Assembly: GCF_003350475.1 (NCBI RefSeq) | Contig: NZ_QQAV01000003.1 | Coordinates: 274,063-338,062 of the forward strand | DNA from: Pseudacidovorax intermedius | GTDB lineage: Bacteria > Pseudomonadota > Gammaproteobacteria > Burkholderiales > Burkholderiaceae_C | Direction of reading: 5' to 3' | DNA: 64,000 nt | In this document: piece by piece, positions 34,304 through 57,157 of the stretch | Position numbering within the stretch: the stretch's first letter is position 1 | How the letters are laid out: each line of letters opens with the position of its first letter | Program-made: the position numbers and the translations under genes | Notes under the pieces: generated by a model | Database searches by the model: none | What the model saw: the letters and a program-made list of their open reading frames with translations, nothing else | What the model was told of the DNA's origin: nothing

Positions 34304-34346
34304 CGGGGGGCTCCGGCGCGGGCGGCGGGCCGGACGGCTGCGCGTC

Positions 34347-35686: not shown

Positions 35687-35694
35687 GAGGAGCC

Positions 35695-37608: not shown

Positions 37609-37630
37609 GACCGCGCTCCTGCAATGCCGC

Positions 37631-37999: not shown

Positions 38000-38019
38000 G
38001 GCTTGCTCCTCCCCGCGCG

Positions 38020-39726: not shown

Positions 39727-39741
39727 GAGGACGCTTTCGGG

Positions 39742-40999: not shown

Positions 41000-41028
41000 G
41001 GCGACTCCTTGGATGAGGGCCCAGGCGC

Positions 41029-42708
41029 TCAGGCATGGGCCAGGCGGGAGGCCGGGGGCAGGTCGTCGGCGAAGGCGGCGGCGCCCTCCTCGCCGGCGTC
41101 GTCGAAGGCGCTGGCGTGGGCCGCGGGGGCGGTCCGGCCGCGCGCACCGGTGCCGCGGAACACGCTCACCGCCTGGCCCAGGTGCTGGGCCTTCTCCTCC
41201 AGCGCGGCAGAGGCGGCGGCCACCTCCTCCACCAGCGCCGCGTTCTGCTGCGTCACCTGGTCGAGCTGGATGACGGTCTGGTTGATCTGCTGGATGCCGG
41301 CCGTCTGCTCGGCGCTGGCCGCGGCGATCTCGCCGATGAAGTCGGTGACGCGCTTGACGCTGTCGACCACCTCGCCCATGGTGCTGCCGGCCTCGCCCAC
41401 CAGGCGGGTGCCGGCGTCCACCTTGGCCACGGCGTCGTCGATCAGCGTCTTGATCTCGCGCGCCGCCTGGGCCGAGCGCTGCGCCAGCTGGCGCACCTCG
41501 GCCGCCACCACCGCGAAGCCGCGGCCCTGCTCGCCGGCCCGGGCCGCCTCCACCGCGGCGTTGAGGGCCAGGATGTTGGTCTGGAAGGCGATGCCGTCGA
41601 TCACGTCGATGATCTCCACCACCCGCTTGGACGAGCCGTGGATCGAGGCCATGGTCTGCACCACCTGCGCCACCACGCCGCCGCCCCGGGCCGCCACCTG
41701 CGAGGCGGAGACCGCCAGCTCGTTGGCCTGGCGCGCGTTCTCGGCGTTCTGGCCCACGGTGCTGGTGAGCTCCTCCATCGACGCGGCCGCCTCCTCCAGC
41801 GCACTGGCCTGCTCCTCGGTGCGCGAGGACAGGTTCAGGTTGCCCTGTGCGATCTCGGTCGAGGCGGTGCTCACGCCGGCCACGCCGCTGCCCACGTCGG
41901 CGATCACGGCGACGAAGTTGGCGCTCATCTGGTTGAGGGCACTGACCAGCGCCTGCGTCTCGTCGCCGCGGCGCAGCACGAAACGGCGCGGGTCGGCGCT
42001 GGCGATGGCCCGGGCGGTGCGCACCGCGGCATCCAGCGGGCCGAGCACGGTGCGCTCCAGCATCAGGCCCAGCACCGTCCAGGCCAGGGCCGAGGCGGCG
42101 GACAGCCCGGCGAGCAGGCCGGTCGCCGACCCGGCCACGCCGCTCCAGGCCAGCCACGCACCCACCGCGGCGCTGGCCACGGCCAGCGTGCCGGTGGCCC
42201 AGGCCATGCGCCGGCGCAGCGGCAGGCGGCGCAGTGCGGCCATCGGATCGGCCCAGACCGGGCCGACAGGTTCGCCCTGGCGCACGCGCAGGCGGCTGCC
42301 GCCCCTGCGCAGGCGCTCGTAGAGCTGCTCGGCGGCACGCACGTCCTCGGGCGAGGGCCTGTTGCGCACCGACATGTAGCCCTCGATGCGGCCATCGGCG
42401 CAGATGGGACTGGCGTTGGCGCGCACCCAGTAGAAGTCGCCGTTCTTGCAGCGGTTCTTGACGATGCCGGTCCACGGCAGGCCCTGCGCCAGCGTGGCCC
42501 ACATGTCGGCGAAGACCTCCGGCGGCATGTCGGGGTGGCGAATGATGTTGTGCGCCCGGCCCAGCAGCTCCGATTCGGCGAAGCCGCTGATGTCCACGAA
42601 GGTGCCGTTCACGTAGGTGATGCGGCCCTTGAGGTCGGTGCGCGAGACCATGAAGCCGTTGTCCGGCAGCTGGCGCTCCTGGGTGGTGATGGGCAGGTTG
42701 ATCCGCAT
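41029..42708 (-). CDS. PAS-containing energy-taxis receptor (Aer-like MCP)
   Basis: 559 residues. Cytoplasmic N-terminal PAS (residues 10-120: [57 protein letters not shown]) of the Aer type, which binds FAD in homologues. Two adjacent hydrophobic segments ([37 protein letters not shown]) form a membrane hairpin without a periplasmic domain. HAMP and the MCP tip [20 protein letters not shown] follow. No CheR pentapeptide. First gene of the che operon; an FNR-like box lies 133 bp upstream. Start MRINLPITT matches Aer proteins; the frame is open further upstream. Confidence 0.92.
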
Positions 42709-43049
42709 CGCTGTTCCTTGGCTGGCGGCGCTGCCCGGGCAGATCCGTGCAGGCCGTGAAACAGATTGGAGCCAACAAGACGTGACAAATCGTTTCTTCT
42801 CTGTGTCTTTTGCGAGGTGCGCGGGCCGCATAGACATCTCTTGATATTGGTCAAATTAACGCCCTGAATGGGACTGCAGCATGGCTTGAAGGCCCATCTG
42901 GACAGTCGGGATGGGCCGCCGGAGCCCCTGCATCGCGCTCGGATGTTCAGATTCAAGAAAGAACGGCTTGTTACCTTTTGCCTGACGCTGTGTCATCCTT
43001 CCGTCACGGATCGCGGCACAACCACGAGACAAGCTGGACACGTTTTTCC
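42709..43049. other. Divergent regulatory region between the che operon and the kinase/partner-switch operon
   Basis: A 341-bp gap without a convincing gene, AT-richer than any neighbour. It must hold both outward promoters. Visible elements: an FNR-like dyad at 42841-42854; on the minus strand TTGACC and TATGCG at a 16-bp spacing partly overlapping that dyad; on the plus strand a run from about 42950 (TTCAAGAAAGAACGG, then TTGTTACC) that may contain the promoter of the 43050 gene. No clear flagellar sigma-28 consensus was found. Confidence 0.6.
42841..42854. promoter_or_regulatory. FNR/Anr-like box upstream of the Aer-like receptor
   Basis: TTGAT-ATTG-GTCAA matches the FNR/Anr consensus TTGAT-N4-ATCAA in 9 of 10 positions. 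It lies 133 bp upstream of the Aer-like MCP start. Oxygen control of an energy-taxis operon would make sense, but a single motif match is weak evidence. Confidence 0.4.
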
Positions 43050-44513
43050 ATGCCTTCCAACCCCTCCGCGACCTTCCATGTCCTTGTCGTCGGCACCGAC
43101 GGGGCCGCGCGCGCCGAGCTGTGCGAGCGGCTCGGGCGGACCGGCCACCGCGTGCGGCCTGTAGCCAGCGTGGGCGACGCCGTCGCCTGGCTGGGCTCGG
43201 GCATTCCCACGGACGTGCTGCTGTGGCTGCCGGCCCCGGGCCAGTGGGAGCCCGAACGGGTCTGTGGCCGACTGCGGGCCGGTGACCGGTGGCTGCCGAT
43301 CGTGGCCCTGCTGGAGGCGCCGGACGAGGCGCGCGCCATCGCCGCACTCACGGCCGGCATGGACGATTGCCTGCACCGCGGCCTGAGCGACGCGCTGCTG
43401 GAAGCCCGGCTGGCGCGGCACGCCCAACGCTCGGCCCTCCAGGCCGACTGGCGGCGCCAGCTGCAGCGCCAGCGCGGCATCCAGGACAACATCGCCGACG
43501 CCGTCGTCACTGTGGACGCGCAGGCGATGGTGGTCGACGCCAACCGCGCCGCGCTGCGCTATTTCGGCGCGGCCGGCGCGCGCAGCCTGGCCGGCCAGCC
43601 ACTGGAGGCCGTCATCGGCGCGGCGCCCGGCCAGCTCGCCACCGGCGAGCGCCTGTGGCTGCGCACGGCCGACGGCAACGGCTTCTGGGCCCAGGCCAGC
43701 GCCAGCCGCTGGTGCGAGGGTGGCGCCGTGCGCACCACCTGGGTCCTGCGCGACCTGACCGAGGCGCTGCGCAACGAACGCATGCGCGATGAATTCCTGG
43801 CCAGCGTCAGCCACGAGCTGCGCACGCCGCTGACCTCGATCCTCGGCGCCGTCGGCCTGCTGGCCTCGGGCGTGGCCGGCCGCCTGCCGCCGACCGCACA
43901 GCCCCTGGTGGCCGCCGCGCAGCGCAACGGCGAGCGCCTGGGCAAGCTGATCGACGACGTGCTGGACCTGGCCAAGCTCGAAGGCGACCGCATGACCCTG
44001 CATTGCCAGTCGCAGGCGCTGGCCCCGCTGGCCGGCGAGGCCGTGAGCGCCGCGCAGGCCTATGCGGCGCGTGCCGGCGTGCAGTTGCGGCTGCGCTGCC
44101 CGGCCACCACGCCGGTCACCGGCCGTGGCGCCAGCGTGGATGCCGACCGCCTGCTGCAGGTGCTGGCCAACCTGATCTCCAACGCCATCAAGCATTCGGC
44201 GCCCGGCCAGACGGTGCTCATCGAACTCAGCGACACCGGCGACGGCCAGCGCATCGCCGTCACCGACCAGGGCCGCGGCGTGCCGGCGGCGTTCCGCTCG
44301 CACCTGTTCGAGAAGTTCGCCCAGGCCGAGGGCGGCGACCAGCGCGGGCCCGGCGGCACCGGCCTGGGCCTGCACCTGGCGCGGCTGCTGGTGCAGCGCA
44401 TGGGCGGGCGCATCGGCTACGCGCCCGGCGCCGGCGAGGTCGGCTCCACCTTCGACGTCTGGTTCCCGGCCGAACCGGTCCCGCAGCCGGTCCGCGCGAG
44501 GGCGATGCCATGA
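43050..44513 (+). CDS. PAS histidine kinase with a degenerate N-terminal receiver
   Basis: 487 residues, soluble. Residues 10-125 have the receiver fold (FHVLVVGTDGAARAELCERL) but VLLWLPAPG stands where the phosphoacceptor Asp should be, and CLHRG replaces the conserved Lys-Pro; this is a pseudo-receiver. A PAS follows (IQDNIADAVVTVDAQAMVVD). HisKA: FLASVSHELRTPLTSILGAV; HATPase: NLISNAIKHS, VTDQGRGVP, GTGLGLHLARLLV. Start MPSNPSAT; overlaps the next response regulator as ATGA. First gene of the plus-strand block. Confidence 0.9.
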   Translation: MPSNPSATFHVLVVGTDGAARAELCERLGRTGHRVRPVASVGDAVAWLGSGIPTDVLLWLPAPGQWEPERVCGRLRAGDRWLPIVALLEAPDEARAIAALTAGMDDCLHRGLSDALLEARLARHAQRSALQADWRRQLQRQRGIQDNIADAVVTVDAQAMVVDANRAALRYFGAAGARSLAGQPLEAVIGAAPGQLATGERLWLRTADGNGFWAQASASRWCEGGAVRTTWVLRDLTEALRNERMRDEFLASVSHELRTPLTSILGAVGLLASGVAGRLPPTAQPLVAAAQRNGERLGKLIDDVLDLAKLEGDRMTLHCQSQALAPLAGEAVSAAQAYAARAGVQLRLRCPATTPVTGRGASVDADRLLQVLANLISNAIKHSAPGQTVLIELSDTGDGQRIAVTDQGRGVPAAFRSHLFEKFAQAEGGDQRGPGGTGLGLHLARLLVQRMGGRIGYAPGAGEVGSTFDVWFPAEPVPQPVRARAMP

Positions 44514-44989
44514 GCATTCGCCCGGCTGTTCGGAAGAGTGCCTGCACCGCAGGCGAAGCCGACGGCGTTCGGATCGACGCCCCCCTCGACGGCGATGACG
44601 CGCTGCGGCGCGTGATGTGCGTGGAGGACGACGACGACATCCGCTACATCCTCGACTTCAGCCTCAGTCAGATCGGCGGCTACGAGGTCTGCGCGGTGGG
44701 CAGCGGCGCCGAGGCGCTGCAGGCGGCGCCCGGCTTCCGGCCCGACCTGGTGCTGCTGGACGTCATGATGCCGCAGCTGTCCGGCCCGCAGACCTTGCAG
44801 CAGCTGCGGCAGCTGCCCGGCATGGAAGGCGTGCCGGTGGTCTTCCTCACGGCCAAGGCGATGCCCGAACAGCTGGAGGAGCTGCTGCGCCACGGCGCCA
44901 CCGGGGTGATCGTCAAGCCCTTCGACCCCGTGCGCCTGCCGCAGGACATCCGCATGTACTGGGAGCACGGCCGTGGGCCCCGGGGCTGA
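44510..44989 (+). CDS. Single-domain response regulator
   Basis: 159 residues with a 35-residue N-terminal extension before the receiver. MCVEDDDDIRYILDFSLSQI holds the acidic triad, LVLLDVMMPQLSG the phospho-Asp, FLTAKAMPEQ the switch residue and VIVKPFDPVRLP the Lys. All phosphotransfer residues are intact, unlike the pseudo-receiver of the kinase just upstream. No output domain, so it is a relay or a protein-binding output. Overlaps both neighbours. Confidence 0.9.
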   Translation: MSIRPAVRKSACTAGEADGVRIDAPLDGDDALRRVMCVEDDDDIRYILDFSLSQIGGYEVCAVGSGAEALQAAPGFRPDLVLLDVMMPQLSGPQTLQQLRQLPGMEGVPVVFLTAKAMPEQLEELLRHGATGVIVKPFDPVRLPQDIRMYWEHGRGPRG

Positions 44990-45311
44990 CCGCGGCGGGC
45001 CCGCCTACGCGGCGCTGCGCCGCCGCTTCCTCGACGGCCTGCCCCAGCGCCGGGCGGCCATCCTGGAGGCCGCCGATGCCCAGGGCCGCCAGCAGGCGCT
45101 GCACCGCCTGGCCGGTGCCGCCGGCAGTTACGGCTTCGCCGCGCTGGGCGAGCTGGCGCGCCATGCCGAAGGGCAGACCGACCCGGCCGGCATCCGCCAG
45201 GCCCTGGACGCACTGGAGGCCGCCCTCGACGGCCTGATCGCCCCCGCCCGCGACGGAGACACGCCACCATGGAAATCAGCAGCCACCCCGCCGGACACGA
45301 CGTCGTCGTGA
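44973..45311 (+). CDS. Histidine phosphotransfer (Hpt) domain protein
   Basis: 112 residues starting at a GTG that overlaps the response regulator by 17 bases. LDGLPQRRAAILEAADAQGR leads into the Hpt helix ALHRLAGAAGSYGFAALGEL, where His sits in the expected HxLxGxxxxxG context. Such proteins carry phosphate between a receiver and another receiver. The tail overlaps the STAS gene by 43 bases, so the real end may be translated from a shared mRNA region. A phosphorelay kinase - regulator - Hpt is implied. Confidence 0.8.
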   Translation: MGPGADRGGPAYAALRRRFLDGLPQRRAAILEAADAQGRQQALHRLAGAAGSYGFAALGELARHAEGQTDPAGIRQALDALEAALDGLIAPARDGDTPPWKSAATPPDTTSS

Positions 45312-45610
45312 TCGCCCTGCGCGAGGCCAACCTCGACGCCAGCAACGTGCGCGAGTTCAAGGAGACTGTGCAGGCCCTGGTCGGCCCCACGGCGACGCGC
45401 GTGGTGTTCGACCTGCAGGGCGTGAAGTTCATCGACAGCTCGGGCCTGGGCGCGCTGATCTCCTGCCTCCGGCAGCTCAATGCCCGGCGCGGCGACTTGC
45501 GGCTGTGCAACCTCACGCCCACGGTGCAGGCGCTGCTGGCGCTGATGCGCATGAACCGCGTGTTCCAGATCTTCCCGGACCGGCAGGATGCCATCGCCTC
45601 CTTCGGCTGA
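45269..45610 (+). CDS. STAS-domain anti-sigma-factor antagonist
   Basis: 113 residues, whole-length STAS fold of the SpoIIAA/RsbV type. VVFDLQGVKFIDSSGLGALI contains the phosphorylatable serine (Ser57 or Ser58). It should be phosphorylated by an RsbW-like kinase and dephosphorylated by a SpoIIE-like phosphatase, and both domains occur in the next gene. AGACACGCCACC precedes the ATG. It ends 23 bases inside that gene. Confidence 0.92.
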   Translation: MEISSHPAGHDVVVIALREANLDASNVREFKETVQALVGPTATRVVFDLQGVKFIDSSGLGALISCLRQLNARRGDLRLCNLTPTVQALLALMRMNRVFQIFPDRQDAIASFG

Positions 45611-48600
45611 AGCGGGTCCGGACGCAGCTCCGGACCCGCGCGCCGACGCCGCCCTGGAACGCGCCCTGCGCCGGCGCGAGCAGCAGTTGCGATGGGTGGG
45701 CCTGCTGGTGGCCGTCGCGGTGCTGCTGACGATGGCCGCCCGGGTGGCACAGGGCTGGAACAACCTGCGCGACGAAGCGCAGGAACACGCCCGGCTGCAT
45801 GCCACGGCGCTCGCAAGCCTGGTGGAAGCCCGGCTGGACCGGGCGGAAGCCGCCACGCAGGCCCTGGCGGCCGCCTGGCCGGCCGGCACGGCCGACGCAC
45901 CCGCCTTGCCGGAGGCCGCCGGCGAAGGCCTGCGGCCGCCGTGGGACCACGAGCTGCTGGCCGTGCTGGCGCTGGACGAGCGCGGCGGCCCCCTGGCGCA
46001 GGACGGCGCGCCGCCGCTGCTGCCGCCACCGGCCAGCCTGCGCCTGCCGGCCACGGCGTCGGCCTGCGACCCGTGCGTCGGCCGAAGGCTGCCCGCGGCG
46101 GCCCTGCCGCCCGTCCTCGCGCAGCGGGCACCGGCCGGCGTCGTGCCGGTGCTGCGCGTGCTGCCGGGCCAGCGCGGCTGGGCCGTGGCCCTGCTGCAGG
46201 CCGACAGCCTGGACCGGCTGACCGATGCGCTGGCCCAGGAGCGCGGCGGCTGGGCCCTGCTGGCCGGCCCCGCCGGCGAAGTGCTGTCGGCCAGCGCCAA
46301 CGCGCCCTGGCCGGCCGGCACCCGGGCCGGCGTCGTGGACCCGGACGACCTGGCCGCCGAGCAGTGGCTGCCGCAGCGGGCGCTGAAGGTGCAGGTCGTC
46401 CAGCCGCGCCAGCCGCTGCTGCAGCACCTGCTGCGCCAGATCCGCCCGGGCGTCGGCCTGACCCTGTTCACGCTGGCCATCGTGCTGGTGGCGCTGCGTG
46501 CGCTGCGCCACAGCATCGCCAGCCAGCACAGGGCACGCGCCACCCTGGCCCGACTGCATGCGCAGGGCGAGCAGCGCGCCCAGCGCTGGCGCCGCGCGCT
46601 GGCGGCGTCGGGCGACGCGCTGTGGGAATGGCGGCTGCCCGACGGCCGGGTCGACCTGAGCGAGCGCTGGGCCGCCATGCGCGGCGAGCCGCCGGCCGAA
46701 TGCCGCTACGACAGCGCCGCCTGGCTGGCCCTGCTGCATCCCGAGGACCGGCACACACTGGCGGACCGGCTCGCCCGCCATCTGCGCCGGGAGCTCGCCA
46801 GCCTGCACTGCGAGGCCCGCGTGCGCTGCGCCGACGGCCGCTGGAAGTGGATGCTGCTGCGCGGCGTGGCCCTGCCCGTGACGCGCGGCGGCCAGGAGGC
46901 CATGCATGTGCTGGGCTTCGTCACCGACATCGCCGACCAGCGCGCCAACGAGGCGGCCCTGAGCACCGCCCAGGCCCGGCATCAGGCCGTGCTCGACAGC
47001 GCACTCGACGCCGTCGTCACCGCCGACGCCCGCGGCAAGGTGGTCGACTTCAACCCCGCGGCCGAACGCATGTTCGGCCTGCCGCGCGAGCAGGCGCTGC
47101 ACCGCCCCATCCACCGCCTGCTGGCACCCGGCGAGGCCCGGCGCGCCATGCGCCAGCGGGCGATGCACGCCCTGCGCGGCGCCGGCGTGGGCATGCATGG
47201 GGGCGGCCGCATCGACGTGATGGCGCTGCGGGCCAACGGCGAGCACTTCCCGGTGGAGGCCACGGTGGTGGCGGTGCGCGCCGGCGCGCAGACGCTGTTC
47301 ACCGCCACCATGCGCGACATCTCGGAGCAGCGCCGCGTGGAGCGCGCCCTGCGCGACAGCGAGGTGCGCGCCCGCGCCACCTTCGAGCAGGCGGCCGTGG
47401 GCATCTTCCTGCTGGACGAGCGGCAGCAGCAGCTGGTGCGCGTCAACCAGACGCTGTGCCGCCTGCTCGGCCGCGACGCCGCCGCGCTGCTGGGCCTGCC
47501 GCTGCAGCACCTGCTGCATCCGCTGGACGCACCCGCCGTGATGGAAGGCACCGAACGGCTGTTCGACGGCGCCGGTTCCAGCCTGCGGCTGGAGGCGCGG
47601 CTGGTGCGCGCCACGGGTCGGCCGCTGTGGGTGCGGCTCACGGCTTCGCTGGCGCACGACGACCGCGGCCGCGTGCTCTACCTGATCGGCATCGTCGAGG
47701 ACATCGAGGAGCAGCGCCAGCACCGTGAGGACCTGCGCGCCGCGCGCCAGCTGGAGGTGATGATCAGCGCCCGCATCCAGGCCTCGCTGCTGGTGGCCGC
47801 GCCTGCCGTGGACCTGCCGGGCCTGTGGCTGAGCAGCTTCAACCATGCCTCGCAGGACATCGACGGCGACTTCTTCGAGGTGATGCGCCCGGGCCCGCGC
47901 TGCGTGGACCTGATCGCCGGCGACGTGATGGGCAAGGGCGTCAATGCCGCGCTGCTGGGCGCGGCCGTGAAGATGCAGTTCAGCCGCTCGCTCGTGGAAC
48001 TGATGATGCAGCCCGCCGCCCGCGACGCCACGCCCGAGCCGGCCGACATCCTCAACGCCGTGCACGCGGCCATGACACCGCACCTGCAAGCGCTGGAGAC
48101 CTTCGTCACCCTGGCCTACGTGCGCATCGACCTGGCGCGCGGCCTGCTCACCTGGTGCGGCTGCGGCCATGAGGAGGTGATGCACATCGGCCCGGGCGGC
48201 GCCGTAGCGCTGCTGCGCAACCAGCATCCGCCACTGGGCGTGCTGGCCGACACCCGCTTCACGCAGGAAAGCCGGCCCGTGGGCCCGGGCGACGCCCTGC
48301 TGCTGCATTCCGACGGTCTGTGCGACGCCCGCCTGGCTGACGGCGAGCGCGTGGGCGTGCAGCAGGTGCATGCCGCCTTCCGCCGGCTGGCCCAGCACCA
48401 TGCCACGCCGGCCGCCATGCTGCACCGCATGCGCCAGCAGTTGCTGGCCGGCACCATGCTGACCGACGACGTGACGCTGGCCACGGTGCGGGTGTTCGAC
48501 CCGCAGCAGCCTGTGCAGCGCCTCGAACTGCCCGCCGAGCCGGGGGCCATCGGCGCCCTGCGGGACCTGGTGGACCGCGGCCTGGCCGATGCCGGCCAGA

Positions 48601-49010
48601 CCTCGCCGGCCAGTGGCCTGTTCACCGTGGCGGTGGTGGAGGCCTTCACCAACATCGTGCGCCACACGCGCGGGCGGCTGCCGCAGGCGCCGGTGGAGGC
48701 GCTGCTGCGGCGGCCGCCCGACGCGCTGGAGGTGTCGCTGATCCACATCGGCGAGCCCTACGTGCCGCCCGAGGACGAGCTGCCGACCAACTTCGACGAG
48801 TACCCCGAAGGCGGCTTCGGCCTGACCATCATCCGCAAGGCCTGCGACCAGGTCGACTACCTGCACCACGACGGCGTGAGCACCGTGCGGCTCACCCGCT
48901 GGCTGGACGAGGCCGCTCCTGGCGGGAGTTTGCAGTCCCGTCACGATCTGGCCGCCCCCTCGGCCGTCCAATCCCAGGACCGCCCCCAACCCCACTCCCA
49001 GCCCGCATGA
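45588..49010 (+). CDS. Membrane PAS sensor with SpoIIE phosphatase and RsbW-like kinase domains
   Basis: 1140 residues, a complete partner-switch controller in one chain. Span 1 (RWVGLLVAVAVLLTMAA, about 35-52), periplasmic sensor (about 55-285), span 2 (GVGLTLFTLAIVLVALRAL, about 287-305). Three PAS-like domains follow (about 325-450, 460-585, 590-705; VFDFNPAAERMFGLP-like motif in VVDFNPAAERMFG). The SpoIIE/PP2C domain has DIDGDFFEVM and AGDVMGKGVNAALLGA. The C-terminal HATPase has VAVVEAFTNIVRHTRG and GGFGLTIIRKACDQVDY. It should both phosphorylate and dephosphorylate the preceding STAS protein. It overlaps the next gene by ATGA. Confidence 0.92.
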   Translation: MPSPPSAEAGPDAAPDPRADAALERALRRREQQLRWVGLLVAVAVLLTMAARVAQGWNNLRDEAQEHARLHATALASLVEARLDRAEAATQALAAAWPAGTADAPALPEAAGEGLRPPWDHELLAVLALDERGGPLAQDGAPPLLPPPASLRLPATASACDPCVGRRLPAAALPPVLAQRAPAGVVPVLRVLPGQRGWAVALLQADSLDRLTDALAQERGGWALLAGPAGEVLSASANAPWPAGTRAGVVDPDDLAAEQWLPQRALKVQVVQPRQPLLQHLLRQIRPGVGLTLFTLAIVLVALRALRHSIASQHRARATLARLHAQGEQRAQRWRRALAASGDALWEWRLPDGRVDLSERWAAMRGEPPAECRYDSAAWLALLHPEDRHTLADRLARHLRRELASLHCEARVRCADGRWKWMLLRGVALPVTRGGQEAMHVLGFVTDIADQRANEAALSTAQARHQAVLDSALDAVVTADARGKVVDFNPAAERMFGLPREQALHRPIHRLLAPGEARRAMRQRAMHALRGAGVGMHGGGRIDVMALRANGEHFPVEATVVAVRAGAQTLFTATMRDISEQRRVERALRDSEVRARATFEQAAVGIFLLDERQQQLVRVNQTLCRLLGRDAAALLGLPLQHLLHPLDAPAVMEGTERLFDGAGSSLRLEARLVRATGRPLWVRLTASLAHDDRGRVLYLIGIVEDIEEQRQHREDLRAARQLEVMISARIQASLLVAAPAVDLPGLWLSSFNHASQDIDGDFFEVMRPGPRCVDLIAGDVMGKGVNAALLGAAVKMQFSRSLVELMMQPAARDATPEPADILNAVHAAMTPHLQALETFVTLAYVRIDLARGLLTWCGCGHEEVMHIGPGGAVALLRNQHPPLGVLADTRFTQESRPVGPGDALLLHSDGLCDARLADGERVGVQQVHAAFRRLAQHHATPAAMLHRMRQQLLAGTMLTDDVTLATVRVFDPQQPVQRLELPAEPGAIGALRDLVDRGLADAGQTSPASGLFTVAVVEAFTNIVRHTRGRLPQAPVEALLRRPPDALEVSLIHIGEPYVPPEDELPTNFDEYPEGGFGLTIIRKACDQVDYLHHDGVSTVRLTRWLDEAAPGGSLQSRHDLAAPSAVQSQDRPQPHSQPA

Positions 49011-50554
49011 ACATCGCCCTCCTGGAAGACGACCCCGATCAGCGGGACCTGGCCACCCTGTGGCTCAGCCACGGCGGCCATCAGGTGACCAGCTTCGGCA
49101 GCACCGGCGAGCTGATCCGCGAGCTGGGCTCGCGCCGCTATGACCTGCTGGTGCTGGACTGGACGCTGCCCGACGGCACCGGCGGCGACGTGCTGACCTG
49201 GCTGCGCAACCGCCCGGGCGTGCAGCCGCCGGCCATCGTGCTGACCTCGCGCGACGAGGAGGCGCACGTGGTCGAAGGCCTGAACAGCGGCGCCGACGAC
49301 TACCTCGTCAAGCCCGCGCGCCCGGCGGAGCTGCTGGCCCGCATCAGCGCCCTGAGCCGCCGCGCCCGCACGCGCGGCCCCCAGGTGCTGGAGCTGAACG
49401 GCTACCGCGTGGACCTGGTGCAGCACCGCATCGCCGTCGACGGCACGGCGGTCGACCTGACGCAGAAGGAATTCGACCTGGCCGTCTACCTCTTCCAGAA
49501 CCCGGGCGTGCTGCTGTCGCGCGAACACCTGCTCAACCGCGTCTGGGGCAGGACGGCGGACGTGACCACCCGCACGGTGGACACCCACATCAGCCGCCTG
49601 CGCCGCAAGCTGCGGCTGGACGGCCAGGGCCCGCTGCGCCTCACGCCGGTGTACGGCCAGGGCTACCGGCTGGACGCGGTCGAGCCGGCCGGCGCCGAGG
49701 TGGACACCGGCGCGGACCCGCAAGCTGGAACGGCCCTGCACACGCCCGCATGCGTCGCCGAACCGGCGGCCGGGCAGCCGGCCGCCTGTACAGACGCCGG
49801 CCCGGCCCCCGGCGCCGACGAAGCCGCCGGGTGGGACACCACCGCCGCCGCGGGCATCGACTGCTGCCCGGGCGTGCTCGCCCAGGGTGGCCCCGCCGAG
49901 CCCCGCGAAGTGCTGGACCACCTGGCGCGCGCCGCGCGCTTCCGCGATGGCGAGACGGCCTCGCACATGGTGCGGGTGGGCTTCCTGGCCTGGGCCCTGG
50001 CCCTGGCGGCCGGCTGCAGCCCCGAAGCCGCACTGCTGCTGCGGCAGGCCGCGCCCATGCACGACGTCGGCAAGATCGGCGTGGCCGATGCGCTGCTCAA
50101 GCACCCGGGGCGCTTCTCGTCGGACCAGCACCGGCAGATGGAGGCCCACACCGTCATGGGCGCCGAGATCCTCGGCGGCTCCGACCTGCCGCTGCTGCGC
50201 CTGGCCGCCGAGATCGCCCTGACCCACCACGAGCGCTGGGACGGCGGCGGCTACCCGCGCGGCCTGCGGGGCGACGCCATTCCGCTGCCGGGGCGCATCA
50301 CGGCCCTGGTCGACTTCTTCGATGCGATGGTGAGCGAGCGCCGCTACCGCGCGCGCATGAAGCCCGACGAGGTGCTGCGCCTGCTGCATGCGCAGAGCGG
50401 CGCGGCCTTCGACCCCAAGCTGGTGTCGATCTTCATCCGCCACGGCGAGCGCATGGCACGGGTGTGCGAGCAGGTGATGGAGCGCGGCCTGGGCTTCGGC
50501 GCGCTGAGCGACCCGCATTCGCTGGACTTCGCGGCGCTGCCAGTCGGCGCTTGA
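49007..50554 (+). CDS. Response regulator fusing receiver, OmpR-type DNA-binding and HD-GYP domains
   Basis: 515 residues in one uninterrupted frame. Receiver 1-115: acidic pair in LLEDDPDQRD, phospho-Asp51 in LVLDWTLPDGTGG, Lys102 in YLVKPARP. Winged helix 125-225: VDLTQKEFDLAVYLFQNPGV, LLSREHLLNRVWGR and THISRLRRKLR, as in OmpR/PhoB. A disordered linker (about 230-300). HD-GYP 300-490: RFRDGETASHMVRV, MHDVGKIGV (His352-Asp353), THHERWDGGGYPRGLRG with GYP at 415-417, ITALVDFFDAMVSERRYR. All metal and GYP residues are present, so c-di-GMP hydrolysis is likely. Start ATG overlaps the previous gene. Confidence 0.93.
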   Translation: MNIALLEDDPDQRDLATLWLSHGGHQVTSFGSTGELIRELGSRRYDLLVLDWTLPDGTGGDVLTWLRNRPGVQPPAIVLTSRDEEAHVVEGLNSGADDYLVKPARPAELLARISALSRRARTRGPQVLELNGYRVDLVQHRIAVDGTAVDLTQKEFDLAVYLFQNPGVLLSREHLLNRVWGRTADVTTRTVDTHISRLRRKLRLDGQGPLRLTPVYGQGYRLDAVEPAGAEVDTGADPQAGTALHTPACVAEPAAGQPAACTDAGPAPGADEAAGWDTTAAAGIDCCPGVLAQGGPAEPREVLDHLARAARFRDGETASHMVRVGFLAWALALAAGCSPEAALLLRQAAPMHDVGKIGVADALLKHPGRFSSDQHRQMEAHTVMGAEILGGSDLPLLRLAAEIALTHHERWDGGGYPRGLRGDAIPLPGRITALVDFFDAMVSERRYRARMKPDEVLRLLHAQSGAAFDPKLVSIFIRHGERMARVCEQVMERGLGFGALSDPHSLDFAALPVGA

Positions 50555-50770
50555 GGCGCCGGGCGGCCGCGCTCCCGAGCGACCGGCCCGCCCCGGCCGA
50601 TCGCGTTGCACGGGCGCAGCGCGCGCCATGGCGGATGGCAGGCGCAATCCGTGTGGGCCAACAGCGCAAAAGAGGTATCGGCTGACAACGACGGCTGTCA
50701 CCTTTTCCTACACTTTTGGACGCTCCCGCATCCCCATCCCTACAAGGGAGCATTCAACGAGGGCCTCCCC

Positions 50771-51619
50771 ATGAACCCGGAAACCGCGGCCCTTGTCCGT
50801 GCTCTGAACGACGATGCCACCGCCGTGGTCGAGGAATGGATGCGCGAGCTCCAGGCCACCACGCAGGGCGGCCTGCATGCCAGCGCCAAGGCCGAGGCCA
50901 CGGCCGTCGCCGATGGCCTGCGCAGCGCCCTCGAAGCCGGGGGCGATGCGCAGTCGCTCCAGGGCCCGGCCTGGCAGGCGCTGCGGCGCACGCTGGAGCA
51001 GCTGTCGGCCAGCCGCGCCGCCAAGGGCGATTCGGCCGGCGCCACCAGCGTCTTCGTTCTGGGGCTCAAGAAGCCCCTCTTCGGCCGCCTGCAGCAGGCC
51101 TTCGCGCAGGACCCGGCCGCCATGGGCAGCGCCCTGTGGACGCTCTCCGCCCTGGTCGACCGCCTGGCGCAGCACACGGCCGACACCTTCCAGCAGTCGC
51201 GCGAGGACGTCATCCGCCGCCAGCAGGAGGACCTGCTCGAACTCTCCACCCCGGTGGTCAAGCTCTGGGACGGGGTGCTGGCCGTGCCGATGATCGGCAC
51301 GCTGGACAGCAACCGCACCCAGGTCGTCATGGAGACGCTGCTGCAGACGGTGGTGGACACCGGCTCGGCGCTGGCCATCATCGACATCACCGGCGTGCCG
51401 ACGGTGGACACGCTGGTGGCCCGCCACCTGCTCAAGACCGTCACGGCCATCCGCCTGATGGGCGCCGACTGCATCATCAGCGGCATCCGCCCGCAGATCG
51501 CGCAGACCATCGTGCACCTGGGCATCGACCTGCAGGGCATCGTCACCAAGGCCACGCTGGCCGACGCGCTGGCGCAGGCCCTCAAGACCAACGGCTGGCG
51601 CATCAGCCGCGAGGCCTGA
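50771..51619 (+). CDS. rsbR: Stressosome scaffold/sensor RsbR
   Basis: 282 residues. The N-terminal helical sensor (1-150) with [20 protein letters not shown] and [20 protein letters not shown] is of the RsbRD type, with no visible haem or flavin site. STAS domain 160-280: [20 protein letters not shown] and [20 protein letters not shown], with the threonines that RsbT phosphorylates in B. subtilis homologues. It should co-assemble with RsbS into a stressosome. The open frame reaches 50606; the ATG at 50771 is family-like. The 216-bp gap upstream presumably holds the promoter (TTTTCCTACACTTTT near 50702). Confidence 0.92.
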
Positions 51620-51624
51620 ACCCC

Positions 51625-52005
51625 ATGGACCGCATCCCGATCCTGCGCATGGGCCAGACCCTGCTGGTCACCATCCAGATCGACCTGCAGGACCAGACCG
51701 CCATGGCGCTGCAGGAAGACCTGGCCAACCGCATCGCGGCCACCGGCGCCTCCGGCGTGCTGATCGACATCTCGGCGCTGGAGGTGGTCGATTCCTTCAT
51801 CGGCCGCATGCTCAGCACCATCTCGGGCACGGCCGCCATCCTCTCGGCCACCGCGGTGGTGGTGGGCATGCAACCGGCCGTGGCCATCACCCTCGTCGAG
51901 CTGGGCCTGTCGCTCGACGGCGTGCGCACCGCGCTGGACGTCGAGCGCGGCATGGCGCTGCTCGATCGCCTGCGCGCCCAGCCGGGAGCCCGCCTTGGCG
52001 CCTGA
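51625..52005 (+). CDS. rsbS: Stressosome scaffold protein RsbS
   Basis: 126-residue STAS protein without a sensor. [20 protein letters not shown] contains Ser57 in the position of the RsbT-phosphorylated Ser59 of B. subtilis. [20 protein letters not shown] is the RsbS-typical second half. It forms the stressosome core with RsbR and holds RsbT inactive until phosphorylated. It starts 5 bp after rsbR and overlaps rsbT by 11 bases. Confidence 0.94.
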
Positions 52006-52399
52006 ACCCACCGGCACCCTGCCGCTGGCCAGCGAACAGCACATCGTCGCCAGCCGGCAGACGGTGCGCGCCCTGTGCCAGGAGCTGCGCTTCTCGCTGG
52101 TGGAGCAGACCAAGATGGTCACCGCCGCCAGCGAGCTGTCGCGCAACACGCTGATCCATGGCGGCGGCGGCCGCATGCACTGGGCCGTGCTGCAGGAAGG
52201 CGCGCGCCGCGGCCTGCAACTGCGCTTCGAGGACGAAGGCCCCGGCATCGCCAACATCGACCTCGCCATGTCCGACGGCTACACCTCCGGCGGCGGCATG
52301 GGCCTGGGCCTGCCGGGCAGCAAGCGGCTGGTGAACGACTTCGACATCCGCTCCACGCCTGGCCAGGGCACTTGCGTGAGCATCGTGAAGTGGAAGTGA
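51995..52399 (+). CDS. rsbT: Serine/threonine switch kinase RsbT
   Basis: 134 residues starting with TTG (no other start gives the family length). HATPase: [20 protein letters not shown] (N box), FEDEGPGI (G1), [15 protein letters not shown] (G2). It phosphorylates RsbR and RsbS and, once freed, activates a partner. In Firmicutes that partner is the phosphatase RsbU; here the candidates are the phosphatase-bearing protein encoded next or the 45588 sensor. Confidence 0.94.
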
Positions 52400-53415
52400 T
52401 CCGCGGCTGGACGCACCGCGCGTTCCCCATCGAGGACCTGAGCTTCGTCGGCGAAGCCCGGCGCCATGTGGCGCGCCTGGCCGCCGAGCGCGCCTGGCCC
52501 GAGCACGACGCCGCCCGCGCCGCGTTGGTGGCCACCGAGCTGGGCACCAACCTCGCCAAGCATGCGCAGGCCGGCCAGCTGCTGGTGGCCGCGCGCGATG
52601 CGCTGGGCGACATCGAGCTGATCGCCGTGGACCGCGGCCCGGGCATGCCCGACCTGGCGCGCTCGATGCGCGACGGCTTCTCCACCACCGCCACGGCCGG
52701 CACCGGGCTGGGCGCCATCGCGCGGCAGAGCGAGGGGTTCGACCTCCATTCGCTGCCCGGCATGGGCACCGTCTGCCTGGCCCGCGTGCGGCCGCGCACG
52801 GGCACGGCCGTGGCCGCCCCGGCCCGGGCGGACGCCTTCGACTGGGGCGCCGTGTGCGTGCCGGTGCGCGGCGAGACCGCCTGCGGCGATGCCTGGATGC
52901 TGGCCTTCGACGGCCGCCGCGCCGCGGCCCTGCTGGCCGACGGGCTGGGCCACGGGCCCGAGGCGCAGGTCGCCGCCCAGGCGGCGCTGGACGGTTTTGC
53001 CAGCCGCCCCTTCGACGACGGCGCGGCCACGATGCAATCCATGCACGAGCGCCTGCGCACCACCCGGGGCGCGGCCGTGTTCGGCCTGTGGATGGAGGGC
53101 GAGGCACTGCGCTACACCGGGGCCGGCAATGTGGCGGGCCGGTTGGTCTCGGGCACCGCCGACAAGGCCCTGGCGACGGCCCACGGCACGCTGGGGCTGC
53201 AGGTGCGCCGCTTCGACATGACCCCCGCGACGCGGCCGCCGCATGCGCTGGCCCTGCTGCACAGCGACGGCGTGCAGACCCGCTGGCCCGGCGCCGCGCT
53301 GGCGCCGCTGCTCGCGCGCGAGCCCACGCTGCTGGCGGCGCGCATCTTTGCCGACCATGCCCGCGGCCGCGACGATGCCTGCGTCGTCGCGCTGCGCCCC
53401 AAGGAGGGCCCATGA
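52396..53415 (+). CDS. RsbT-like ATPase fused to an RsbX/SpoIIE-type phosphatase
   Basis: 339 residues from the GTG that overlaps the rsbT stop as GTGA. Residues 1-125 are a second GHKL domain: VATELGTNLAKHAQAGQLLV, AVDRGPGMPD, TAGTGLGAIARQSEGFD. Residues 145-335 are a PP2C domain (CGDAWMLAF; ALLADGLGHGPEAQVAAQAA; GAGNVAGRL; LLHSDGVQTRW). RsbX in Bacillus is the phosphatase domain alone and resets the stressosome. The fused form occurs in several Gram-negative modules (family knowledge). It could both switch and reset the complex. Confidence 0.88.
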   Translation: MIRGWTHRAFPIEDLSFVGEARRHVARLAAERAWPEHDAARAALVATELGTNLAKHAQAGQLLVAARDALGDIELIAVDRGPGMPDLARSMRDGFSTTATAGTGLGAIARQSEGFDLHSLPGMGTVCLARVRPRTGTAVAAPARADAFDWGAVCVPVRGETACGDAWMLAFDGRRAAALLADGLGHGPEAQVAAQAALDGFASRPFDDGAATMQSMHERLRTTRGAAVFGLWMEGEALRYTGAGNVAGRLVSGTADKALATAHGTLGLQVRRFDMTPATRPPHALALLHSDGVQTRWPGAALAPLLAREPTLLAARIFADHARGRDDACVVALRPKEGP

Positions 53416-54347
53416 CCGAATCTCCGCAAACCGACGCGCGGGTGCTGCAGCTGCAGCAGCGCCTGCAGGCCGCCGAAGCGGAGGCTGCCCTGCTGCGGGA
53501 GGAGCTGGAAGAGACCAACCGCGGCGTGGTCGCCCTCTATGCCGAGCTGGACGAACAGGCGATCGCCCTCAAGCGCGCCACCGAACTCAAGAGCCGCTTT
53601 CTGTCGCACATGAGCCACGAGTTCCGCACGCCGGTCAATGCCATCCGCAGCATCGCGCGGTTGCTGAGCGACGAGGTGGACGGCCCGCTCTCCGACGAGC
53701 AGCGCCGGCAGGTGCAGTTCATCCAGACCTCGGCGCGCGAGTTCGCCGAGATGGTGGACGACCTGCTCGACCTGGCCAAGATCGAGGCCGGCCGCGTGGA
53801 GATCTCGCCGGCCTGGTTCGAGATGGTCGACCTGTTCTCGGCGCTGCGCGGCATGTTCCGGCCCATGCTGGAGAACCAGCAGGTCAGCCTCGCCTTCGAG
53901 GAGCCGAGCGACCTGCCGCGGCTGTACACCGACGACCGCAAGCTCTCGCAGATCCTGCGCAACTACGTCTCCAACGCCCTCAAGTTCACGCCGCAGGGCG
54001 AGGTGCGCGTGGCGGCCTGCCGCCTCGGCGAGGACCGGGTGCGCTTCTCGGTGAGCGACACCGGCATCGGCATCGCCCCGGAGCACCAGGCCTCGGTCTT
54101 CGACGACTTCTCGCAGGTGGATTCGCCGATGCAGAAGCGCCTGCGCGGCACCGGCCTGGGCCTGGCGCTGTGCCGCCAGCTGGCCGGCCTGCTGGGCGGC
54201 GAAGTGGGCGTGGAGAGCGAACTGGGCCGCGGCTCCACCTTCTGGCTCACCCTGCCGATGCAGCTGCCGGATGCGCCGGCGCCCGCGCCCGCGCGCACGG
54301 GCGCGCCTGCCGATCAGCCGGAGGTCGCGTGGAAACCACCCGTGTGA
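53412..54347 (+). CDS. Soluble histidine kinase of the stressosome operon
   Basis: 311 residues, no membrane span and no recognisable sensor. A coiled coil (residues 10-60, rich in LQQRLQAAEAEAALLREELE) leads directly to HisKA FLSHMSHEFRTPVNAIRSIA and HATPase NYVSNALKFTP, SDTGIGIAPE, GTGLGLALCRQLA. The coiled coil may receive its signal from the stressosome. The ATG overlaps the preceding stop as ATGA, so it is translated with the Rsb proteins. C-terminal 30 residues are proline-rich. Confidence 0.9.
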   Translation: MTESPQTDARVLQLQQRLQAAEAEAALLREELEETNRGVVALYAELDEQAIALKRATELKSRFLSHMSHEFRTPVNAIRSIARLLSDEVDGPLSDEQRRQVQFIQTSAREFAEMVDDLLDLAKIEAGRVEISPAWFEMVDLFSALRGMFRPMLENQQVSLAFEEPSDLPRLYTDDRKLSQILRNYVSNALKFTPQGEVRVAACRLGEDRVRFSVSDTGIGIAPEHQASVFDDFSQVDSPMQKRLRGTGLGLALCRQLAGLLGGEVGVESELGRGSTFWLTLPMQLPDAPAPAPARTGAPADQPEVAWKPPV

Positions 54348-56320
54348 TCCACACCACCATCGACCGGGGTGCCCACCGCATCCTGGTGGTGGACGACCAT
54401 CCGACCACGCGCTACTCGACCGCTCGCACGCTGCGCGCGGCCGGCTTCGCCACCGAGGAGGCGGCCTCCGGCGGCCAGGCACTGGCGCTGGCCGCCCAGG
54501 GCATGTCGGCGCTGGTGCTGGACGTGCACCTGCCCGACGTGGACGGCTTCGAGGTCTGCCGGCTTTTGCGCGAGGACCCGCGCACCGCCAGCCTGCCGGT
54601 GATCCACCTGTCGGCCACCTTCGTCCAGGACCGCGACAAGGTGGCCGGCCTCAACGCCGGCGCCGACGCCTACCTGGTGCACCCGGCCGAGCCCGCGGTG
54701 CTGGTGGCCACGCTGCAGGCGCTGATCCGCGCGCGCAGCGCCGAGGACCGGCTGCGCCAGAGCGAGAGCCGCTTCCGCGCCATCTATAACCAGGTGCCCG
54801 ACGGCATGGCGCTGCTGGATGCGCAGGGGCGGCTGGATGACGTGAATCCGGCCCTGGCCCATCTTCTGGGCCGCACGCCCGACGCACTGGTGGGCGTGCG
54901 CCTGTCCACCCTGGCCCAGGTGGCCGCCGCGGCGCAGGTGCAGGCGTTCGTGGCGCAGGCCGCGGAGGCGGCGCCGGGCAGTACCAGCAGCGTGTGGCGG
55001 GCGGAGTTTCCGCTGCTGCATGCCGACGGGCACGAGATCCCGCTGGCCTGGAGCCTGTCGCCCCACGGCCCCACCGGCCTGCTGGTGGCGGTGGCCGTCG
55101 ACATCTCCGAGCGCCTCGCCCTGGAGCAGGCCCGCCAGGAGGTGCTGGAACGCGAGCAGGCGGCCCGGGCGTTGGCCGAGCGCCACAGCCGCACCAAGGA
55201 CGACTTCGTGGCCGTGCTCTCGCACGAGCTGCGCACCCCGCTCAACGCCATCAGCGGCTGGGTCCACATCCTGCAGAAGCATGGCGGGCGGCCCGACCTG
55301 ATGGCGAAGGCGCTGGACGCCATCGCCCGCAGCGTGAAGGCGCAGAGCCGCATCATCTCGGACATCCTCGACGTCTCCCGCGTCAACGCCGGCAAGCTGC
55401 GGCTGCACCGCGAATGGACCGACCCGCTGGAACTGACCCAGGCCGCCGTGGATGCGCTCAAGGACGACATCGCCGCGCGCGGCCTGACGGTCGCGCTGCA
55501 GGCCGACGAGCCGGCGCGCCAGAGCGCCTGGCTGGACCCGACGCGCTTCCAGCAGATCGTGTGGAACCTGCTGAACAACGCGATCAAGTTCTCGGCGCAC
55601 GGCGGCCGCATCGACGTGGTGCTGCGGCGCGAAGGCCGGCAGCTGACGCTGCAGGTGCAGGACCACGGCAAGGGCATTGCTCCGGACTTCCTGCCCCATC
55701 TTTTCGACCGCTTTGCGCAGAGCGACGGCCCCGACAACCGGCTGCACGGCGGCCTGGGACTGGGCCTGTCGATCGTCAGGCGGCTGGCCGAGCTGCATGG
55801 CGGCGCCGTGCAGGCCTTCAGCGAGGGTGAAGGCCGTGGGGCCCGCCTGGTGGTCGAGCTGGACGTGGCGCCCGAGAACCAGCCCGAGCCCGCCAGCGCC
55901 GAGCCAACAGTCGATGGCGCTCAGGCGCCCCACCGCGACCGGCCCCTTGCGGGCCACGACGTCCTGGCGGTGGAGGACAACCCCGACGCCGCCGAGATGC
56001 TGCAGGTGGTGCTGCACGAGGCGGGCGCACAGGTGCGCGTGGTGCACGACCACGACAGCGCCCTGGAGGCGCTGCGCGAGCGCTGGCCCAGCCTGCTGGC
56101 CAGCGACATCGGCCTGCCCGGCCGCGACGGCTACGAGCTGGTGCGCGCGCTGCGTCGGCTGGAGGCCGAGGGCGGCCGCCCGCGCGTGCGCTGCGTGGCG
56201 CTCACGGCCTTCTCGCGTCCGCAGGACCGCGACCGGGCGCTGGAGGCGGGCTTCGACGCCCATGTGTCGAAACCGCTGGACACGCATGCGCTGCTGGCGG
56301 CGCTTCGGGGCGGCGGCTGA
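54329..56320 (+). CDS. Hybrid histidine kinase, REC-PAS-HisKA-HATPase-REC
   Basis: 663 residues from a GTG with GGAGG five bases upstream. First receiver (15-135): ILVVDDHPTTRYSTARTL, phospho-Asp in LVLDVHLPDVDG, but YLVHPAEP has His in place of the invariant Lys. PAS (about 150-270: IYNQVPDGMALLDAQGRLDD). HisKA: FVAVLSHELRTPLNAISGWV; HATPase: NLLNNAIKFS, DHGKGIAPD, GGLGLGLSIV. Last receiver (540-660) is complete (LAVEDNPDAAEM, ASDIGLPGRDG, VSKPLD). Overlaps the previous kinase by 19 bases. Last gene of the block. Confidence 0.92.
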   Translation: METTRVIHTTIDRGAHRILVVDDHPTTRYSTARTLRAAGFATEEAASGGQALALAAQGMSALVLDVHLPDVDGFEVCRLLREDPRTASLPVIHLSATFVQDRDKVAGLNAGADAYLVHPAEPAVLVATLQALIRARSAEDRLRQSESRFRAIYNQVPDGMALLDAQGRLDDVNPALAHLLGRTPDALVGVRLSTLAQVAAAAQVQAFVAQAAEAAPGSTSSVWRAEFPLLHADGHEIPLAWSLSPHGPTGLLVAVAVDISERLALEQARQEVLEREQAARALAERHSRTKDDFVAVLSHELRTPLNAISGWVHILQKHGGRPDLMAKALDAIARSVKAQSRIISDILDVSRVNAGKLRLHREWTDPLELTQAAVDALKDDIAARGLTVALQADEPARQSAWLDPTRFQQIVWNLLNNAIKFSAHGGRIDVVLRREGRQLTLQVQDHGKGIAPDFLPHLFDRFAQSDGPDNRLHGGLGLGLSIVRRLAELHGGAVQAFSEGEGRGARLVVELDVAPENQPEPASAEPTVDGAQAPHRDRPLAGHDVLAVEDNPDAAEMLQVVLHEAGAQVRVVHDHDSALEALRERWPSLLASDIGLPGRDGYELVRALRRLEAEGGRPRVRCVALTAFSRPQDRDRALEAGFDAHVSKPLDTHALLAALRGGG

Positions 56321-56396: not shown

Positions 56397-56720
56397 ATGG
56401 GCTTTTCAGCCAGCGACGTCGTGCCTTTCACCCAGGCCCGCGCCAACCTCTCGGAACTGGCCGATCAGGCCAAGGCCGGCGCCGAGAAGATCATCACCAA
56501 GAACGGTGAAAGCTACGTCGCCCTCATCGATGCCGACCGGCTGGACTACTACCACCGCCTGGAGCGCGAGCGCATCCATCTGCTGCTGATCGACGATGCC
56601 CGGCGCGGCATTGCCGACATCGAGGCCGGCCGCACCTACGGTGCCGATGCGGCCCTTGCCCAGCTTCAACAGCGCCGCGCGGCCGTCCCCACTGGCAAAG
56701 CCGCCAAGAAGCGTGGCTGA
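56397..56720 (+). CDS. Phd/YefM-type antitoxin
   Basis: 107 residues. The N-terminal half (VVPFTQARANLSELADQAKA and KIITKNGESYVALIDADRL) is the Phd/YefM DNA-binding fold. The C-terminal half (LLLIDDARRGIADIEAGRTY) would wrap the toxin. Antitoxin genes come first in such pairs, as here, with an 8-base overlap with the toxin gene. Preceded by AAGGAG. Confidence 0.88.
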   Translation: MGFSASDVVPFTQARANLSELADQAKAGAEKIITKNGESYVALIDADRLDYYHRLERERIHLLLIDDARRGIADIEAGRTYGADAALAQLQQRRAAVPTGKAAKKRG

Positions 56721-57114
56721 GGCTCTGCATCGGGTCGAACTGACCGCGAGCTTCCTGGAGCGGCTGGACGCCATCGAGACCTTTCTGACAGAAGCCGACG
56801 CGGCATTCGCCTTCGATGATCTGCTGGCCGGCCTGCGTGCCACGGTCATCCCCAATCTGGCCCGGTTCCCCCGCATCGGCCGGCGCTACCTGGACAACCC
56901 GCCGCAGTCGGCCGAAGCACTGGCCCAACTCGCAGCACTGCCAGCCGGCACAGCCAGTGCTCTGCGCGAGTACCTGCATGGCGACTACCTGATGCTCTAC
57001 ACCGTCTTGGACGCCAGTGCGACGGTCTATCTGCTGTCCATCCGGCACCACCGCCAGCTTTCATTCGACTTCGCCCGCCTGTGGCCGGGCGCCAACGCGC
57101 AGGAGCGGCGCTGA
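56713..57114 (+). CDS. RelE/ParE-superfamily toxin
   Basis: 133 residues from the GTG overlapping the antitoxin stop. HRVELTASFLERLDAIETFL opens the ParE/RelE fold; FPRIGRRYLDNPP, REYLHGDYLMLYTVL and VYLLSIRHHRQLSFDF supply the sheet and the C-terminal basic and aromatic residues. It is somewhat longer than the typical 95-100. Target (gyrase or ribosomal mRNA) cannot be decided from sequence. Confidence 0.82.
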   Translation: MAEALHRVELTASFLERLDAIETFLTEADAAFAFDDLLAGLRATVIPNLARFPRIGRRYLDNPPQSAEALAQLAALPAGTASALREYLHGDYLMLYTVLDASATVYLLSIRHHRQLSFDFARLWPGANAQERR

Positions 57115-57157
57115 GCTTGTATGAGGCTTTGATCACAATGCATTCGAAAGGCACCCC

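Follow-up and report, generated by a model that had tools for sequence, protein, structure and literature searches.

We examined a 64,000-nucleotide stretch of the Pseudacidovorax intermedius genome (contig NZ_QQAV01000003.1, positions 274,063 to 338,062; hereafter the window, with coordinates counted from its first base) for a gene that joins a receiver (REC), an OmpR/PhoB-type winged helix-turn-helix (wHTH, or winged helix), and an HD-GYP domain in one protein. The gene is a single open frame on the plus strand at 49007-50554, uninterrupted from ATG to stop, and codes for 515 residues. Domains were called with Pfam profiles and their cut-offs, and structure matches were obtained by sequence search against solved structures. 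The parts of the gene are as follows:

49007..49372, plus strand: receiver, residues 1-122 (Pfam Response_reg at 3-113; 11-row alignment; model elements E2-6 to H106-120)
49373..49681, plus strand: OmpR/PhoB-type winged helix, residues 123-225 (Trans_reg_C at 146-222; regX3 alignment; model strands then helices)
49682..49900, plus strand: linker, residues 226-298 (composition, orthologue alignment, and model)
49901..50452, plus strand: HD-GYP domain, residues 299-482 (HD_5 at 322-472; 4mcw; HD at 352-353, GYP at 415-417)
50453..50554, plus strand: C-terminal tail, residues 483-515, and stop codon (reading frame)

The Response_reg match scores 75.9 bits against a cut-off of 30.2; the phospho-acceptor D51 and K102 are both present and invariant in the 11-row alignment, and D97, D98, R112, R118, and R119 are unchanged throughout it. 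The Trans_reg_C match (85.2 bits, cut-off 26.2) is internal to the protein and not C-terminal. The OmpR/PhoB regulator regX3 aligns to residues 3-223 (E 9.7e-37), and the PhoB model TIGR02154 covers residues 2-223 at 168 bits, which is below its equivalog cut-off of 296. The HD_5 match reaches 93.6 bits against a cut-off of 27.2, the HD-GYP enzyme 4mcw aligns to residues 300-488 (E 1.8e-48), and the Pfam scan gave no EAL match in the fusion protein. An earlier note on this DNA had described a complete receiver (D51, K102), winged helix, and HD-GYP domain (H352-D353, G415-Y416-P417) in one frame, and the residues and Pfam matches confirm this description. Residues 1-225 form a complete member of the OmpR/PhoB family. 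Regulators of that family normally end after the winged helix, whereas the fusion runs 290 residues further; RpfG-type REC-HD-GYP proteins likewise hold a receiver and an HD-GYP domain in one protein, but they are without a winged helix, and by its scores the receiver-wHTH part here belongs with the OmpR/PhoB regulators. The same note was also right that the protein departs from both of these architectures, the winged helix sitting between receiver and HD-GYP. Long antisense frames over the gene were rejected as candidates because such frames are commonplace in DNA of 70.6% GC and because the plus frame has a GC content of 0.88-0.98 at codon position 3 in all five gene segments.

The solved HD-GYP enzyme PmGH is described in the excerpted text of PMC4159591 as having eight metal ligands, further important residues D183, K225, and D308, and a residue, K317, that contacts the substrate. 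Equivalents of all eight ligands and of D183, K225, and D308 are present in the alignment of the fusion to chain 4mcw, the matching residues being D314, E316, H320, H352, D353, K356, H381, H407, H408, D436, and D439, and the catalytic residues of the HD-GYP domain are unchanged among the aligned orthologues. Judged by these residues, the domain should hydrolyse cyclic di-GMP (c-di-GMP). The genome has 27 GGDEF matches over the cut-off, and the cell should therefore make c-di-GMP.

The full-length fusion was found in 5 of 15 Pseudacidovorax genomes (G000, G402, G404, G405, and G406). The protein of locus L009 is identical to that of the window, those of L010, L011, and L012 align at 93, 81, and 78% overall, and across the window, L010, L011, and L012 the HD-GYP domain stays in frame at 85-97% identity despite changes in linker length. 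A hidden stop or frameshift between residues 225 and 300, which the earlier note had named as a possible flaw, was checked and is excluded: the five genomes carry the full-length gene, and the indels in the linker are of whole codons. That a sequencing or assembly error joined two genes is next to impossible, as the separate assemblies of L009-L012 carry the identical in-frame layout and the reading frame survives throughout a linker that changes fast; we regard the artefact as refuted. Ratios of nonsynonymous to synonymous substitution rates (dN/dS) over three pairs (window versus L011, window versus L012, and L011 versus L012) were 0.12-0.21 for the receiver, 0.08-0.23 for the winged helix, 0.22-0.28 for HD-GYP, and 0.47-0.75 for the linker. 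The window and L010 gave 0, 0.56, and 0.25 for the three domains, a pair too close for good folded-domain ratios, and 1.08 for the linker. The receiver, the winged helix, and the HD-GYP domain are under purifying selection.

Alanine, glycine, and proline make up 41 of the 73 linker residues; the linker is 67-77 residues long across orthologues, the differences being whole codons, and 14 of its 73 columns are invariant among the four distinct orthologues (window, L010, L011, and L012). An AlphaFold2 model made with the 11-row alignment had a mean pLDDT (predicted local distance difference test score) of 56.8, with the receiver and winged helix fair to good and HD-GYP poor; pLDDT fell below 50 over residues 228-320, and the linker had no predicted structure. 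Only 4 of the 11 aligned rows cover HD-GYP, and the low confidence in this domain and the linker may partly reflect so thin an alignment. Since the linker is long, length-variable, fast-evolving, and unstructured, loose tethering of the HD-GYP domain is favoured over rigid gating. An Asp-Cys-Cys motif in the linker (residues 285-287, window 49859-49867) is kept in all aligned orthologues; it may be a redox or metal site, or chance.

The earlier note had also raised the doubt that the architecture might be widespread, and we found none outside the genus in the sampled genomes or plasmids. There was no other full-length match among the matches listed for 399 genomes of the family (at most 3 candidates scored per genome), in 399 genomes of the order (at most 3), in 369 genomes of the class (at most 4), or among the matches listed for 150 genomes of the phylum (at most 13). 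Each of these four samples includes the window's own genome. There was likewise no full-length match among the matches listed for 117 genomes of the phylum of G777 (at most 17 candidates scored per genome) or in nine further genomes; the phylum, G777-phylum, and nine-genome searches used residues 123-490 as the query. In the plasmid collection, 0 of 387 records reached at least 80% coverage. The samples searched overlap. We also scanned 81 HD-GYP frames (60 regions hand-picked for longer frames, 17 other loci, and L009-L012) with a wHTH profile built from sequences gathered here. Four of them have a winged helix, and all four are the fusion orthologues; the remaining 77, among which L107 and L143 are one gene, include none with a winged helix and 46 with a receiver match, 4 of these below 30 bits. 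No OmpR-type regulator with an HD-GYP domain was described among the matches listed in the open-licence literature searched (titles and abstract openings). Within the limits of these searches, the fusion is restricted to Pseudacidovorax in the sampled genomes, which is not proof of absence elsewhere.

The fusion gene stands between two sets of genes on the same strand, identified by Pfam matches:

42978..44513, plus strand: histidine kinase (PAS, HisKA, HATPase_c)
44510..44989, plus strand: stand-alone receiver (Response_reg)
44973..45311, plus strand: HPt (histidine phosphotransfer) protein (Hpt, 32.3 bits)
45269..45610, plus strand: STAS protein of the anti-sigma-factor-antagonist type
45588..49010, plus strand: PAS repeats, SpoIIE (PP2C-type) phosphatase, and HATPase_c_2
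50771..51619, plus strand: RsbR-like protein (RsbRD_N and STAS)
51625..52005, plus strand: RsbS-like STAS protein
51995..52399, plus strand: RsbT-like HATPase
52396..53415, plus strand: RsbX-like protein (HATPase_c_2; SpoIIE match below cut-off at 20.8 bits, cut-off 25)
53412..54347, plus strand: histidine kinase
54344..56320, plus strand: hybrid kinase REC-PAS-HisKA-HATPase-REC

Upstream alignment places the likely real start of the first kinase at the ATG at 43050; its N-terminus resembles a degenerate receiver by eye, without a Pfam match. The stop of the SpoIIE gene overlaps the start of the fusion as ATGA, and this start context is identical in L009-L012. Among unfused relatives in the family, homologues of the upstream genes lie near 8 of 15 receiver-wHTH loci, a SpoIIE protein homologue near six (L128, L133-L136, and L138) and kinase, receiver, and STAS genes near two (L131 and L137), which supports a working link of the regulator to the upstream set. 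The claim that the fusion is the likeliest output device of the whole supercluster stands only in part. It closes the upstream kinase/HPt/partner-switch gene set, as the ATGA overlap indicates, but the stressosome genes have their own conserved upstream block, and this regulator does not accompany them in G071, G401, and G255. The block, TGACA-N21-TANANT (50683-50714), precedes the rsbR-like gene in 7 of 7 sequences (window, L010-L013, L232, and L234), and because genomes that lack the fusion locus share it too, transcription of the stressosome operon probably starts from a promoter of its own. Its spacer of 21 bases is too long for an ordinary sigma-70 promoter, and in a promoter scan the sole promoter-like match and the sole terminator-like match both fell inside the rsbR-like gene.

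A sixth genome, G400 (taken as L013, P. intermedius NS331), has the fusion locus without HD-GYP. Its receiver-wHTH part is 82% identical over residues 50-231, the contig beginning at residue 50, and the frame ends 18 residues past the GYRLDA that closes the winged helix; with so early a stop, and with the rsbR-like gene beginning 208 bases after it, an HD-GYP domain would not fit. Part of the upstream SpoIIE gene (residues 462-950, 77% identity) was found in G400 on a different contig. An rpoB tree with midpoint rooting, covering 14 of the 15 genus genomes (G403 gave no match), has a branch that separates the five fused genomes from the rest at 100/99 and another that separates these five plus NS331 at 100/100; a tree of the receiver-wHTH part over 177 columns did not settle the branching order. 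No fusion was seen in the receiver-wHTH relatives examined outside the genus, L014-L025 and L044, which end at 227-247 residues, and no HD-GYP match follows the receiver-wHTH gene in L128-L141 and L147. Because rpoB puts NS331 beside the five fused genomes and outside relatives are unfused, the simplest history suggested by these sequences is a single recent gain of a C-terminal HD-GYP domain within the genus, after the NS331 split. The alternative, in which the common ancestor gained the domain and NS331 later lost it, would take two events rather than one.

The closest HD-GYP domains that we found, at 54-58% identity, belong to stand-alone Comamonadaceae proteins (L143-L146), which have neither receiver nor winged helix in frame and carry an extra N-terminal stretch, helical by eye, that is missing from the fusion. 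The host's other HD-GYP domains are less similar (47, 46, and 39% among the matches listed). At L145 (6887-10697), the HD-GYP gene lies between a separate receiver of 123 residues, which comes first, and an 864-residue gene that has a kinase match; this set of neighbouring genes may be a relative of the HD-GYP donor. RsbT was found at 81-99% identity in 9 of the 15 genus genomes. The three of them that lack the fusion locus (G071, G401, and G255) have the stressosome module with no copy of this regulator immediately before it. About 2 kb upstream of the module in G255, on the opposite strand, are a distantly related response regulator (38%, partial match) and part of a kinase (33%). The SpoIIE gene was matched at E 1e-40 in 0 of the 2 tested among these three genomes. 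From this distribution, the module of rsbR-S-T-X and two kinases looks older than the fusion. The locus looks to have been built stepwise, with the stressosome module first, then the phosphorelay, partner-switch, and regulator genes upstream of it, and finally HD-GYP, an order that we infer.

On the present sequence evidence, we lean, with modest confidence, towards the fusion being a two-output response regulator, in which phosphorylation would control DNA binding and a c-di-GMP phosphodiesterase would be flexibly tethered to the DNA-binding part. The upstream kinase/receiver/HPt relay would set the phosphorylation of D51; the phosphorylated receiver would dimerise in OmpR/PhoB fashion, and the winged helices would then bind promoters. 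DNA binding by a phosphorylation-driven dimer is the default of the OmpR/PhoB family, and we adopt it because residues that do not vary among relatives are retained in both the receiver and the winged helix. The C-terminal HD-GYP, added to the 3' end of the gene within the genus, would be a metal-dependent c-di-GMP phosphodiesterase and, being floppily linked, would most likely lower c-di-GMP when and where the regulator is expressed and bound, as a tethered enzyme and not under rigid control of the receiver. In this way, the phosphorelay/partner-switch set beside the stressosome operon would drive a single-step change of both transcription and c-di-GMP in the cell. Several observations weigh against this proposal. 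No target promoter was found for the regulator, the substrate contact K317 of PmGH is replaced by R448, the dN/dS of HD-GYP is slightly higher than those of the receiver and winged helix, and the HD-GYP part is poorly modelled (pLDDT of 27-67 in ten-residue blocks over 301-490). In addition, 7 of the 15 family loci and all 5 outside relatives (L014-L018) are without upstream partner-switch genes, and the neighbour counts come from loci some of which are cut by contig ends, with no random-locus baseline.

The earlier note had suggested that phosphorylation could couple DNA binding to hydrolysis, or that c-di-GMP could tune DNA binding. The linker, which favours loose tethering, and the phosphorylation-independent hydrolysis reported for VieA (see below) speak against a tight coupling of the first kind. 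In the second case, binding and hydrolysis of c-di-GMP by HD-GYP would directly alter DNA binding by the winged helix, and the protein would read c-di-GMP at promoters, like PdeL. The winged helix and HD-GYP are both intact and constrained, which favours such a trigger phosphodiesterase, but a long, length-variable, fast-evolving linker is an unlikely route for direct allostery, and we consider it doubtful that the protein works in this way. It is similarly doubtful that the fusion is a first HD-GYP trigger phosphodiesterase in the full sense, an OmpR-type regulator assembled in one genus and wired to the partner-switch/stressosome cluster, whose promoter binding would depend both on phosphorylation and on whether its C-terminal domain holds or hydrolyses c-di-GMP. 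RpfG has been reported to bind GGDEF proteins, and the HD-GYP domain here might be catalytically silent, or its catalysis secondary, serving as an interface for docking or dimerisation, with GGDEF proteins as one example; the 27 GGDEF matches offer potential partners. RpfG is without two of the eight PmGH ligands in the excerpt of PMC4159591, so HD-GYP proteins do vary in metal content; the fusion, however, has all eight and the three further residues, unchanged in aligned orthologues, and a docking role is distinctly unlikely. It is very unlikely that HD-GYP is a passenger acquired by chance, with no regulatory role and heading for loss: the fusion was seen only in five genomes of one genus and the sister genome does without the domain, yet HD-GYP is under purifying selection and its catalytic residues are kept while the linker drifts.

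If the two-output reading is true, one signal could alter gene expression and c-di-GMP together. The nearest functional precedent, by analogy and not by descent, is VieA of Vibrio cholerae, a REC-EAL-HTH protein that likewise holds a receiver, a c-di-GMP phosphodiesterase, and a putative DNA-binding domain in one regulator (PMC4352251, in excerpt). The same excerpt says that direct DNA binding by VieA had not been demonstrated, and its hydrolysis is reported to be independent of phosphorylation in the part of PMC5498567 that cites earlier work. VieA differs in that its enzyme is an EAL domain placed between receiver and HTH, whereas the fusion has HD-GYP at the C-terminus. PdeL of Escherichia coli (LuxR-HTH-EAL) also joins an active phosphodiesterase to a DNA-binding domain and is termed a trigger phosphodiesterase, an effect of c-di-GMP on its DNA binding being a proposal (PMC5052742); it differs in having an EAL domain and a LuxR-type HTH, and the excerpt mentions no receiver. 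A route from an HPt protein and an anti-anti-sigma factor to c-di-GMP is described for HptB-HsbA-HsbD of Pseudomonas aeruginosa (PMC5085249), where the excerpt gives the c-di-GMP enzyme as a separate protein, and stressosomes adjoining c-di-GMP or phosphorelay outputs are known, including a Vibrio vulnificus stressosome with two-component genes (PMC9237108); the excerpted texts describe no DNA-binding phosphodiesterase for either system. A receiver, a phosphodiesterase, and a putative DNA-binding domain in one protein are thus already known from VieA, as are stressosomes beside c-di-GMP outputs, and the fusion is therefore a variation on a known kind of protein, differing in enzyme class and domain order. 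EAL enzymes seem to act directly at promoters; the excerpted text of a 2016 review (Hengge, PMC5052742) leaves open whether HD-GYP enzymes can do likewise, and the fusion is a direct candidate for such an enzyme. The idea is testable against a natural control, since the sister genome NS331 carries this regulator, minus HD-GYP, at the corresponding locus. The fusion would also document the acquisition of a c-di-GMP enzyme by a pre-existing transcription factor across a short evolutionary distance.

Some further features lie around the locus. Chemotaxis genes (CheA, two methyl-accepting chemotaxis protein [MCP] genes, and CheD) occupy 33692-42837 on the minus strand, upstream and opposite in direction. 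Just downstream, at 56397-58261, are a Phd/YefM-type antitoxin gene and an AAA_21 (AbiEii-like) ATPase gene; the antitoxin gene was matched beside the locus in L009, L011, L012, and L013 and not in L010, and the ATPase gene was matched in L012 alone of these five, being missing from loci that reach far enough to contain it. A TTGAT-N4-GTCAA box (42841-42854), which we take to be of the FNR/ANR type, sits in the gap between the kinase gene at 42978 and the MCP gene that diverges from it; the box occurs once in the window against 0.05 expected and is also visible in L009, L010, L011, and L012, being perfect in L011 and L012.

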